From NCBI GenBank assembly GCA_031310005.1, contig CM062382.1, forward strand, positions 930,001-994,000: 64,000 nt of DNA, written 5' to 3'. Every line of letters begins with the position of its first letter. The stretch's first letter is position 1. This stretch comes from Dactylellina haptotyla. Taxonomy: Eukaryota > Ascomycota > Orbiliomycetes > Orbiliales > Orbiliaceae. The translations under genes and the position numbers were made by a program. Under the pieces are notes generated by a model. It saw only the letters and a list, made by a program, of their open reading frames with translations, was not told the DNA's origin and ran no database searches. This document shows, piece by piece, positions 28,566-34,186 of the stretch.

Positions 28566-31500
28566 CTATTTCGTTTTGCTTGCTCTCTTTTTACGAGCCT
28601 CGGCTACCAGCTCCGTTACTCTAGACCATTCCGGCTCGGGTAAGTGCAGTGTTTCTATGGTTTCCCCATATTTGTTCTTAACATCAATATTAGCACCTCT
28701 GGTTAGCAACAAACGCGTAAATTCTGGGTTGTTCAATTGTATAGTCATGAGTAATGGTGGGTCGAAAGCTCCCCCGCCGGCATCAAGGTCGGCCCCGGAG
28801 TCAGCTAATAGCTCAAACATATGGTAAGCATTTTTTTCGATGATAGCTAGAAGTGGCGTGCGCCCATCCTTTCGGGCCACATTCACATCCGCTCCGGCAT
28901 CCAAAAGTAATTTCGATGTACCGTAGTTGGTGGTGCAGGCAAGCGAGAGCGGGGTCTCCCCAATTTTATCCATTTTATTGACATCCGCCCCAGCATGTAG
29001 TAGTAGATGAACCAGCTCCATATTGCCCCTCATAGCAGCGTTGAATATCGCGGTTCTACCTCCATAGTCCACCTTATTCACATCTGCCCCGGCATCTAGT
29101 AGTATCTGAGCTAGGTCCGGGTCGATCCGCTTAGCAGCGCTGAATATCGCGGTTTTACCGTTAGAGTCCTCCTTATCCACATCTGCCCCGGCATCTAGTA
29201 GGTGCTGAGCTAGGTGCGGATAGTTTTTCTTAGCAGCTCTGAATAACGCAGTTCTATTTTTGTTGTCCACCTTATTCACATCTGCCCCGGCATCTAGCAG
29301 GTTTTACCGTTAGAGTCCTCCTTATCCACATCTGCCCCGGCATCTAGTAGGTGCTGAGCTAGGTGCGGATAGTTTTTCTTAGCAGCTCTGAATAACGCAG
29401 TTCTATTTTTGTTGTCCACCTTATTCACATCTGCCCCGGCATCTAGCAGTAGCTGAGCCAGGGACAAATAGCCTCTCTCAGCAGCTCTGAATATCGCAGT
29501 TCTACCTTTATAATCCACCTCACTTACATCTGCCCCGGCATTAATGAGGAGTTCGGCGGAGTGGTAATCGCCCTTCGTAACGGCTAGGAATAGCGGTGTA
29601 TCGTCGTAGATGGTCTCCCGTGCATTAACACTCTTCCCGGCGCCGTTCTCTAAAAGAAACTTTGCAATGGGTACAACCTTCGATTTAATTGCTGCGAAAA
29701 GAGCAGTTTTGCATTTCTTATTCTTCAAATTCACATCCATTCCAGCTTCTACCAAGAATTTCACGGCTGAGAAATCCTTGCTTTCAGCAGCCAGAATAAG
29801 AGCGTTGTCTCCAGAGTTGTTTTGTGACATGATGTCGGCTCCGGTTTCTAACAACGCTTTTAAAATGCCAGGGTTTCCCTCAACAATATCAATGTGATGG
29901 GAAAACGCCCACAAAAGCGGTGTATCGCCAGATGTATTAACGGCGTTAATGAGAGCTCCATTTTTCACTAAGAGGTTGATAATCGCTGGTGTGTTATCGT
30001 ACGTGTCTTTCCTTCCGAGAGCATAATGCAGAGCCGTATTCCCACTGGTCGTTTTCCCACGAGCTTGCGCACCTGACTCCAATAACAGTCTAACGGCTTG
30101 TAAGTCATCATTTTTCGCCGCTTGTTGGAGTGGTAGCATCCCAGATTTGTCGGGATATTCAAGGTGAGTTCGAGTGTAGTCCGTCTGCAGCAAGCGCTCG
30201 ACGAGACTCTTATTTCCAGTGTCAATAGCTCGCTGAAGTGGTGTATGTCCAGTCGCTTCTCTCATATATTCTTCTACGCCTTTCTCAAGCAGGAAGTGGA
30301 TCAGTGGTTCATGGTTCTCGGTTATTGCCTCCCAAAGAGCGATACCCTTATTCTCATTCCAGACGCCGCTTTCTTGAGAGATATGGTTGCGATCAAGCGG
30401 GCTGGATTCAAAGTGCTCGAAATAGAGTTTCACAATATCGGTAAGTCCGAGCTTCGCGGCGAAGCGTACAGCGGATATTGGACCCCTTTCAGGATAATAA
30501 TCTTTTTCTAAATACTGTCTGACTACTGAAATGTCCCAGTCCCTTATGGCGGTTGCCCCATGCTCGAGCAAGATGCGTACTGTGGATAGATATCCGCCAT
30601 CGGAAGCCAGATCTAGGGCGGTCGTGAAGCCGACCTGGTGGTCAATGTCAATCTTTTGCTTCAACAGAATCCTGACAGACTCTGTATGACCTCGGGCTGC
30701 AGCAAAGTGGAGTGCTGTAAGTCCGTCTTTCGTTTTTGCCGCCACATTCGCACCTTTCATGAGCAAGAGTTCCAAGATTTCGAAGTGCCCTCTAAGAGCC
30801 GCCACGTGTAATGCTGTGCCTTCGTAGTTGTCGTGCTCATCAATCACCAGGTACTGCTCCGCCAAAAGGAGCCTAACACAGTCAAGATGACCATTTTCTG
30901 CAGCTAGAATCAAGGCTGTTCTCCCAGTGTCTTTAGTATGGGCGTTTATACTTGTCCCATTCCTTTTCAGAAGCACTTCGAGGATACCAGGATTGCCCAA
31001 TTCTGCGGCGTATGATACCGTCGTCCGATCATTATTGTCTAAGATGTTGGTGTCAACATTTTTTCCGAGAAGAAGATTCGCAACTTCAATATTCTTATTT
31101 TTTATAGCCCAACAGAGCGGAGTTAATCCCGCTTCATCCTGGCCGTTTAGCTCCGGATCAATCTCTGGATTGGATTCAGGCCTTGGTTTCTGGAGTAAAT
31201 ATTTAATGACCACTGTGCAGTTTTCCTTTGCCCAGTCAACCAACTTGAAATTGCTGTTGTAATTAGGCACTAGATCGTCTTTTGCTCCGCTTGATAGCAG
31301 TTTGAACTTTTGGTGGTCGAGACATTTATCATCTGCTATCCGCAATGCGATCCAGGCATGTTCCTGAATCACCTGAGATAGTTGAAGATTCATTTTCTTA
31401 TTCATCAGCATTTTGCAAATACCATCAAATCCCAGATCAAACTCATCCAAATCCCATAGCAATGAGTGATAAAGCTCAATGAGCGCTGTAGAGAACACCT

Positions 31501-34186
31501 GAACTTCAGATGAACTATCGTCATCGACTATATTGGGATTTTCACAGAGCCATTGGAGTAGGCTCTCGGCCTCTTTCCATTTCCCTTGGGTCTTAAAAAG
31601 TCCTACCTGATAAATTGCTGCATCAGCGATATCTTTAATGCTAGGCATCTTTCCAAGTTGTTGTAGAACCGGATAGATGCACATATAAGCATCCTCTTGA
31701 GAGCCGAGTCCACTGGTCTCGAATCGTGTGGCAATCTCCTCGACCATGGAATTCTGGAGTAAAATCCCACCACCCTGCGCTTTGAGCGCGCGAGACTCTC
31801 GCGTCTCTGTCTTGCCAGTGATATCGGGGATTTCCTTGATAGCAGCCAAGAGGAAGAACATAAAAATATCCTGCGCGCACATTTGAACGGCCGTGTTTGG
31901 CGTCTTAACGAAGAGTGCTCGAGCCGCATCATCTTTGTTCACTGGTGCCAAATTTCCGAACAGATGCTGATCCACGAGCTGGTGGATACCTCTTGAGCTT
32001 AGCAATTCAGTAGGTACTTCCCCTCGCACCGGGGTGTATTTGCGTTGGATCCAGGTCTGATACCACATCGCTGTCTTCTCTAAATCGCCATGTCCTAGGA
32101 AGATTCGATGGTTTGATATCCGTTTCTCTTCAATCCCATCGCCGACATCTCGAATCGTCAAAGAGAACGACCAGAGCCCAATGAGAGCCTCTAATTGAGA
32201 TGGCTCCACCCTCCACGAAACGCCCTCCCCCTTCAAGACGCCGAGTTCAAATACCTCGGGTTTACTCTCACTCAGAGAATCAGTAGATTGTCGAGCTAGC
32301 CGTGGGGTGGTCGTTTCATCAAGAAATAAGATTGTGGCATGGGGCAGAGCTGAGATAGGATAATATTTTGTCTTTATCGGCCATTTCAATACATCGCCTG
32401 GGAAAGCAGTGAGATTAGAACCTTGTATTGACGAAAGAACTTCTACCAGTCCTTCGATCGCGGCTGATAATTGCCTTGCCGTAGCTCTGACCTCAAGATC
32501 ATCCCAGGAAGGTCCATTTACGCTCGAAGTGATGTCTGCCAAATGCTGGCGTGTCTCCAGTGGACCTCCAACAGTTGGGACATCACTTTCTCGAGGATTT
32601 TCGTCCTCGAGATCTCGCACTCCTTTTTCGGGCTCAGGGTACACTGAAGAGAATAACACAGGTTAGTTAGGATATTCAAGCGTCCCTGGGTTTGGTTCTC
32701 CTTACTTTCAATTTTTTGGTCTAGGTCAGCCTCCACCGCGATCGAATCAATTTTATACAAATGAAGTGAGAACAAGTCGAGCTCATGACCGTGAAGTAGC
32801 TTTGGACGTTTCAAGAACGGATTTTTCCTGCTAACTCGCCCGCCTTTATTTGGCGACGACAGAATATTCATCACACCATTCATCCGCTGCGTCCGAAGCA
32901 TAGCCCTGATAATAGACATGAGCAACGTGGCACCGATTTGTACCAAAATTACAGTGGCGTGCATCGCTCTCAATCCAACAAACTGTACCACGAACCCGAG
33001 TACGGACGCGACAACCGCAATCCACAAGACAGCAACGTCCTTGGCTCCATGGCTGGCTCTTACCGATCTGATATAATATCGATCCGCGGAATATCCGATA
33101 AAAGAGCCAAAAACTTGATCACCAATGCTCTGCCCTCCTGGTTGTATCCAGTAGATTTTACAAGGATCAGATTCTTGCCTGCGGTCAATGTAGCGCTTGT
33201 AGTGAACCTCATTCGTACTTCGTTCGATAATAAAGGCGCAGAGAAACATCCCAAAGCAAACTAATACGGTACCGGCAAAGGTCATGGGGAAAGCGTACGC
33301 CTCGGCTGGACCTGTAGCCGTTGGGAAGTGATCTGGGAGCGTGTAAATTGTAAGCGCGGCAAACACCAATGTCCCTGTAGTCACAGAATGTTAGTAGATT
33401 TAGGAGAAAGAATCATGTGAGGGAACAGACCACTCTGTAAAGCGATTCCAGCTGCAGCTGCCGCATAAGCGAATACTTTTGGGAGCTTCGTTATTCCCAC
33501 GTTCAAAGAAAGATTAGGACGGTGATACTGAGAAATCGGCTCCTCCAGATTGTAACCCCAAGGTGACCACTTCGAGCGAGGCTTGAACTCCTTTTTGTCC
33601 ACCCAGTCGCATGCTCTATGGACATCAGAGAAAAGACCAACAATGAATCTCCCCCGGTCGATCGCTGGGGCGGCCATGATCTCAAGGATTCGTGGTTCAC
33701 CGAATACACGAGCGATTCCACCTTCATTGAACAATTCGGCCGTAGTCTCCGAAGTACAGGATAACAGCTCGACTTCTGCCGTCCCCGGGCTTTCTTGTGC
33801 CCTCCCGATAAATGCGCGCATAGACGGTGTTCCGCAAACGCGGATCGCAGATACCACGGCAGTGAGCAGACCCAAAGGGGCCATAGCGAAGATAACATTG
33901 TCCCATACGCTCAGAGATTCGCTCAGGAATTGTTTAGTTATCTGTTCGCCAAATAATGTGATCAAGGGCGCCTTTGAATGATATTTCGTCAGTCACGAAT
34001 GTCACCCTAGAAAATACGATAGCGCGTACCAAGTCTGTGGCAAAATTATTTGTGAAGTCATCCCAATTAAGCGCTGATACGACTGGAAGTAACACCAAAG
34101 TCGTTACGACCAAGACCTGAACTAAATATGTACTTAGTCATACGCATCTCCAATCTCGGGAACAATAGCCTACTTTTGTGTTGCAT
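28566..34186 (-). CDS. Multi-pass membrane protein with ankyrin-repeat tail, frame broken by a tandem duplication
   Basis: Exons 34174..34186, 34030..34121, 33431..33971, 32706..33374 and 29294..32643 join in frame. The N-terminus MQHKIQVLVVTTLVLLPVVS is signal-like. It leads into a block found in many ascomycete ankyrin proteins (DLAPLITLFGEQITKQF, NVIFAMAPLGLLTAVVSAIR), several further hydrophobic segments up to about residue 430, and then roughly 20 ankyrin repeats. Read directly, the frame stops at 29294 after 1,554 aa because a 149-bp duplication (29152-29449) shifts it; seven more repeats and a basic end (ARKKRASKTK) remain open down to 28566. Removing 149 nt, by splicing or from the genome, gives 1,747 aa. 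The last repeats are very similar to one another. Function unknown; a membrane-bound recognition or scaffold role is a guess. An upstream in-frame ATG (MTGANSN) is an alternative start. Confidence 0.78.
29152..29449. repeat. Perfect 149-bp tandem duplication inside the ankyrin gene
   Basis: Bases 29152-29300 and 29301-29449 are identical by direct comparison. The unit spans about one and a half ankyrin repeats (99 bp each) and is 149 bp long, which is not a multiple of three, so it shifts the minus-strand frame by two. Absence of any difference points to a very recent event or an assembly error. Confidence 0.95.
29271..29419 (-). other. Candidate new intron created by the duplication
   Basis: On the minus strand the repeated unit contains one AGGT (29418-29421 and 29269-29272). 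Using the GT in the upstream copy as donor and the AG in the downstream copy as acceptor removes exactly 149 nt and restores the ankyrin frame. A CTCTAAC branch-like site lies about 38 nt before the acceptor. The donor GTGGAC is weak. A competing 98-nt option (29210..29307, donor GTAAAA, acceptor CACCTAG) also corrects the frame and would add 17 residues. Confidence 0.35.

Follow-up and report, generated by a model that had tools for sequence, protein, structure and literature searches.

An exact 149-bp tandem duplication in an ankyrin-repeat gene of Dactylellina haptotyla and a candidate 98-nt intron that would restore its reading frame

The window analyzed here is a 64,000-nucleotide stretch of contig 4 (positions 930001-994000) in a genome of 39.8 Mb assembled into 11 contigs; coordinates given without a contig are those of the window. 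On its minus strand lies a gene whose ankyrin exon contains a 149-bp tandem duplication, and this duplication shifts the reading frame. As the original prediction stated, direct reading of the last exon through the duplication runs into an in-frame TAG (29294-29296). The question is thus whether the gene has simply been truncated, or whether the duplication has also supplied an intron whose removal would reopen the frame.

The two copies of the unit, at 29301-29449 (copy 1, on the upstream side in the transcript) and at 29152-29300 (copy 2), were found by direct comparison to be identical at 149 of 149 positions, as had been claimed, and TRF reported a period of 149, 2.0 copies and 100% matches for this stretch. 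The direct comparison also showed that the match continues for one base at 29151, which is the same as the first base of the unit and gives a 1-bp microhomology at the duplication junction. A search for perfect tandem repeats with unit lengths between 12 and 2000 nt covered the window and twenty 10-kb samples, together 264 kb of the genome. The duplication at 29152-29449 was the sole one with a unit longer than 79 nt; the next three had units of 79, 44 and 37 nt and were located in two samples with GC contents of 21% and 8%. Since the copies are identical and no other such unit exists in the 264 kb, the repeat is a duplication and not a chance occurrence, and it is real in the assembly. The absence of any difference between the copies means that the duplication is recent or that the copies have been maintained identical.

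The other 18 of the 20 samples had GC contents of 44-50%. Of the two exceptions, positions 1-10000 of contig 11 (21% GC) carry tRNA-Gly and tRNA-Lys; judging from the low GC content and these tRNAs, this contig of 249,811 bp may be a very large mitochondrial genome. The other, a 10-kb stretch with only 8.4% GC (contig 6, 900001-910000), is perhaps a mutated repeat block or a centromere.

The possibility that the strain has a single copy and that the second was created during assembly should be considered at this point. The unit length of 149 bp is near that of many short reads, and the two copies match perfectly. In contigs 1-10, telomere repeats were seen at 8 of 20 contig ends, which means that the assembly does not reach every end. 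However, the 39.8 Mb are contained in only 11 contigs, the 264 kb sampled include no N, and no other exact tandem unit above 79 nt occurs there; nothing in this 0.7% of the genome points to a systematic overlap error. We consider an assembly artefact unlikely.

The last exon of the gene (28566-32643, minus strand) encodes a middle region and the ankyrin array. It is preceded by a 62-nt intron (32644-32705), an exon with hydrophobic, membrane-like segments recognized by eye (32706-33374), a 56-nt intron (33375-33430), and an exon at 33431-33971. The last of these was located by tblastn of a paralog on contig 10 (paralog A, at about 345-350 kb); the alignment extends over the first 351 nt of this exon, at which point the query runs out, and 102 of its 118 residues are identical. 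Both introns have CTAAC-type branch sites by eye, and both were also found by the gene finder described below. Comparison with paralog A tentatively adds two further upstream introns and a start at 34186: a signal-peptide-like exon may lie at 34030-34121 (tblastn, 18 of 33 residues identical), and a 13-nt first coding exon with the ATG at 34174-34186, the latter proposed because the predicted first exon of paralog A is likewise 13 nt long. Pfam Ank_2 matched the translation P0001 with 307.3 bits and the ankyrin tail P0003 with 133 bits (cut-off, 27.3). In a PDB search of P0001, the best 60 of 456 rows were ankyrin-repeat chains or fusions, as named, and among these 60 no informative match was found for the N-terminal part. 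The gene encodes an ankyrin-repeat protein, which is probably membrane-like. An Rfam search of the window gave no match.

Paralog matches were found at 345752-349841 (paralog A), 1995170-1997913 and 781313-785432 on contig 10, and at 3971539-3974946 on contig 1. The family of ankyrin genes in this genome appears to be large: the tail P0003 has at least 165 genome matches, several per gene and the window's own included, many of which lie in frames of more than 700 residues. In the third paralog, an in-frame TAG occurs within one N-terminal match (contig 10, 781313-782026), and the gene finder starts the gene late; this may reflect either an unrecognised intron or a broken gene.

What the frame was before the duplication can be judged from the tail. 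According to a periodic Markov score, the tail of the window gene reads as coding in its own frame (+23.1, vs -95.5 and -83.8 in the other frames), and paralog A ends in a short similar tail, which is weak evidence in that the aligner placed it after a long gap. For these two reasons, the frame open to 28566 is taken as ancestral. The original prediction had counted seven further ankyrin repeats in it; the frame is indeed open, and the repeats amount to about six plus a degenerate seventh.

If the duplication is read through, the protein is truncated to 1554 residues (1490 when counted from 33884), ending after "DSNGKTC" with the loss of the C-terminal ankyrin repeats. Such a plain truncating mutation, with the duplication left unspliced, is a serious contender, to which we would give a substantial chance, short of one in two. 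Most of the array is left in the 1554 residues. Moreover, the last exon of paralog A is shorter than that of the duplicated gene and yet open to its end, and for this reason the array length seems tolerant. The shortened array might then be neutral, or the messenger might be degraded owing to its long untranslated tail. No second lesion was found in the gene, which would speak against truncation, though none is expected yet at zero differences between the copies. A further objection is that the duplication contains sites of ordinary appearance for an intron that would restore the frame, as described below.

For the evaluation of splice sites, a small gene finder was trained on 254 kb (0.6%) of this genome in five retraining rounds, starting from donor, acceptor, branch and length weights of a fungal consensus. 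It yielded 70 genes with 121 introns, and the training introns are thus predictions in their own right; 107 of the 121 donors were also recovered when the donor bases beyond GT were ignored. The inferred introns have a median length of 69 nt (5-95%: 54-144) and a median branch distance of 17 nt (5-95%: 11-30.5), and their acceptors are TAG in 69, CAG in 43, AAG in 8 and GAG in 1. Because the first run included the duplicated gene itself, the scoring model was fitted again without it, on 69 genes with 118 introns. With this model, 436 GT-AG pairs around the duplication were scored, in a listing that allowed branch points upstream of the donor, and 49,052 GT-AG pairs inside predicted exons served as decoys. 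The 10-fold cross-validation refits the splice model only; the 118 introns had been selected by a model for which every one of them served as training data, and their scores are raised by this.

The original prediction put first, as a possible rescue, an intron of exactly one unit length (29419-29271, 149 nt; donor AAG/GTGGAC, acceptor AATAAG), running from an AGGT in one copy to the same AGGT in the other; this is the scheme of the Rogers model. Several elements of this proposal hold: the minus strand of the unit contains exactly one AGGT, and omission of 29271-29419 leaves the frame open to 28566 and restores the ancestral protein exactly (1683 residues from the ATG at 33884). The splice sites, however, argue against it, and on their scores it was rejected as the main reading. 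The site score is 0.86, which is matched or exceeded by 22.7% of the 49,052 decoys; only 1 of the 118 cross-validated introns scores lower, on sites or on the full score; and the pair ranks 14th of 436, at -2.0 nats relative to truncation. Thus, in the retrained model the two AGGT copies, together with the branch site available to them, do not look like splice sites that could be used. The donor GTGGAC, already regarded as weak, occurs in none of the 121 inferred introns, and the AAG acceptor type in only 8. The branch-like CTCTAAC is present, at a distance of 39 nt and not the 38 nt originally counted, which is outside the 5-95% range. Between it and the AAG acceptor lie a TAG (29294) and a CAG (29282), and spliceosomes usually choose an AG that follows the branch early. 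Finally, an AGGT intron is possible in 601 of 1500 random 149-nt duplications, and in 242 of the 1500 its score equals or exceeds the present one. Taken by itself, the presence of an AGGT in a duplicated exon is accordingly weak evidence, as so many random duplications would offer it. We regard the AGGT intron as very improbable; the idea that the duplication may have made a frame-restoring intron survives by another route.

The best candidate is a 98-nt intron at 29307-29210 (minus strand), whose donor ACG/GTAAAA lies at the end of copy 1 and whose acceptor ACCTAG lies in copy 2. A branch-like TGCTAAG is located at 29229-29235, with its A 20 nt before the end of the intron, and the in-frame TAG at 29294 falls inside the intron. 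This pair had been mentioned as correcting the frame, which it does, but only as a competitor to the 149-nt intron; in our scoring it ranks first of the 436 pairs, +15.6 nats over the truncated reading in the retrained model, a value that leans on the coding tail. It was also picked by the self-trained gene finder, in the run that included the gene itself. Its site score is 9.44 (donor 4.5, acceptor 3.1, branch 1.8; branch distance 20 nt), and 12 of the 49,052 decoys equal or exceed it. In cross-validation, 42 of the 118 introns fall below it on sites and 33 when length and composition are added. Without cross-validation, 35 of the 118 training introns fall below it on sites and only 5 on the full score, so that on the full score the candidate is less typical than its sites suggest. 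It is nevertheless within the range of the inferred introns of this genome. In the gene models, the corresponding last exons of paralogs A (3428 nt) and B (2807 nt) run to their final stop with no intron. Removal of the 98 nt gives a frame open to 28566 and a protein of 1764 residues, with no other stop in the joined exons over 5.6 kb. The protein gains 17 residues, half an ankyrin repeat, which we take to be the second helix and loop of one repeat without the first helix; this added half repeat may disturb the ankyrin stack.

Some features weigh against the 98-nt reading. The donor has A in place of G at position +5 (12% in the model), the last base of the branch is G (5%), and GTAAAA is the donor of 2 of the 121 inferred introns, one of which is the candidate itself. 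In addition, its sites, length and composition together do not make up for how seldom an intron occurs per coding base (3.26 + ln(118/98,786) = about -3.5 nats). Other frame-correcting pairs were also seen. Introns of 113 nt (29307-29195) and 59 nt (29329-29271) rank second and fifth of the 436, at +9.9 and +6.1 nats, but in each the branch, the acceptor or the donor is weaker than in the 98-nt intron; one of these, or several products spliced side by side from the GTAAAA donor, has a very small chance of being the true outcome. The consensus donor GTAAGT at 29522-29527, in the open ankyrin exon, was rejected: relative to reading through, its frame-correcting pair of 257 nt scores -5.2 nats, and a 75-nt pair from the GTAAGT at 29527 leaves the stop in place and scores -5.7 nats.

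How often chance alone would provide such an intron was estimated by duplicating random 149-nt units in silico, in exons of other genes and in exons of the gene's own family. A frame-restoring intron with sites of at least 9.44 arose in 15 of 1500 and 73 of 6000 duplications in other genes, and in 47 of 6000 in the family; that is, 1485 of the first 1500 gave no frame-restoring intron with sites as good, a point in favor of plain truncation. With length and composition included, the counts were 20 of 1500 and 81 of 6000 in other genes, and 285 of 6000 (4.8%) in the family. When the units were of 100-200 nt, other genes yielded 71 and 72 of 6000, and the family 29 and 243 of 6000. If splicing is not involved, the 98-nt intron is therefore a coincidence of roughly 1% by sites, and of up to 5% on the full score in the own family. 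These rates correspond to a likelihood ratio of about 5 to 15 in favor of the 98-nt intron, and this ratio, combined with a modest prior for rescue by splicing, gives about even odds against truncation, a weighting that is a judgement and not a computed posterior.

On this basis, our first choice, held at slightly under an even chance, is that the recent duplication made the 98-nt frame-restoring intron (29307-29210) from latent sites and that the gene is functional. In the proposed sequence of events, a recent duplication of the end-joining type, to which the 1-bp microhomology would point, copied 149 bp inside the ankyrin array. In a single unit, the donor-like GTAAAA lies downstream of the branch site and the TAG acceptor, the wrong order for splicing. 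Across the two tandem copies, the GTAAAA of copy 1 comes before the TAG acceptor of copy 2. This would create a 98-nt intron that straddles the junction, takes the premature stop out of the message and brings the frame back. The spliceosome would presumably use these sites with some efficiency, the gene would presumably stay functional, and the net effect would be a protein with 17 additional residues, 1764 in place of the truncated 1554.

The ankyrin units adjoining the duplicated stretch (28975-29541) share 76-82% DNA identity with it. From this identity, the array seems to have been recently enlarged by whole 99-bp repeats, apart from the 149-bp event. Unequal crossing-over between 99-bp repeats was rejected as the cause of the latter, because multiples of 99 would be expected and not 149.

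Introns gained by tandem duplication have reportedly been surveyed by Gao and Lynch in 2009. A search of the literature on ankyrin repeats, tandem duplication, frameshift and new introns gave no report of the present case among the matches listed. The mechanism would be imprecise intron gain by tandem duplication, a known route for which this locus is a new candidate. According to section 8 of PMC3443670, many duplication-made introns are imprecise and arise from latent sites in the duplicated segment. As in that class, an exonic tandem duplication here would supply both donor and acceptor and add coding nucleotides; the two sites within the duplicated segment resemble those of the genome, and the frame is kept after removal. 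Unlike the cases treated there, the copies are still identical, so that where the sites came from, and in what order, can be read off completely, while splicing is predicted from the sequence alone. An example of the Rogers AGGT model is vertebrate ATP2A1 (Hellsten et al. 2011, as presented in PMC4974935 and PMC3443670). An AGGT-bearing exon segment with one AGGT in the unit is tandemly duplicated in both, but in the present gene the AGGT sites score like decoys, far below another pair. The potato RdRp intron (Ma et al. 2016, PMC4974935), as outlined there, likewise involves a recent tandem duplication and a latent exonic donor and is not a simple AGGT case; its branch site and acceptor came from a pre-existing intron, whereas all the sites here are exonic. 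Among fungi, the fission yeast introns of SPOG_01682 and SOCG_00815 are described as derived from tandem exonic repeats (Zhu and Niu 2013, PMC3629103). Their units are of 24 nt and not all identical, unlike the 149-bp unit; according to the same account, spliced ESTs exist for them, one of which removes more than the annotated intron.

According to PMC4974935, only a small number of recent intron gains have been proven. If the 98-nt intron is spliced, this locus would present a recent gain with zero divergence between source and product, in which the intron was made by latent sites that the duplication set in the right order. The exact repeat would then also allow the intron to be lost in one step. 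It is conceivable, though on the whole doubtful, that we are looking at a newborn intron, possibly still segregating, in which the order of latent sites has been reversed, the sequence is otherwise untuned, and the functional protein is half a repeat longer.
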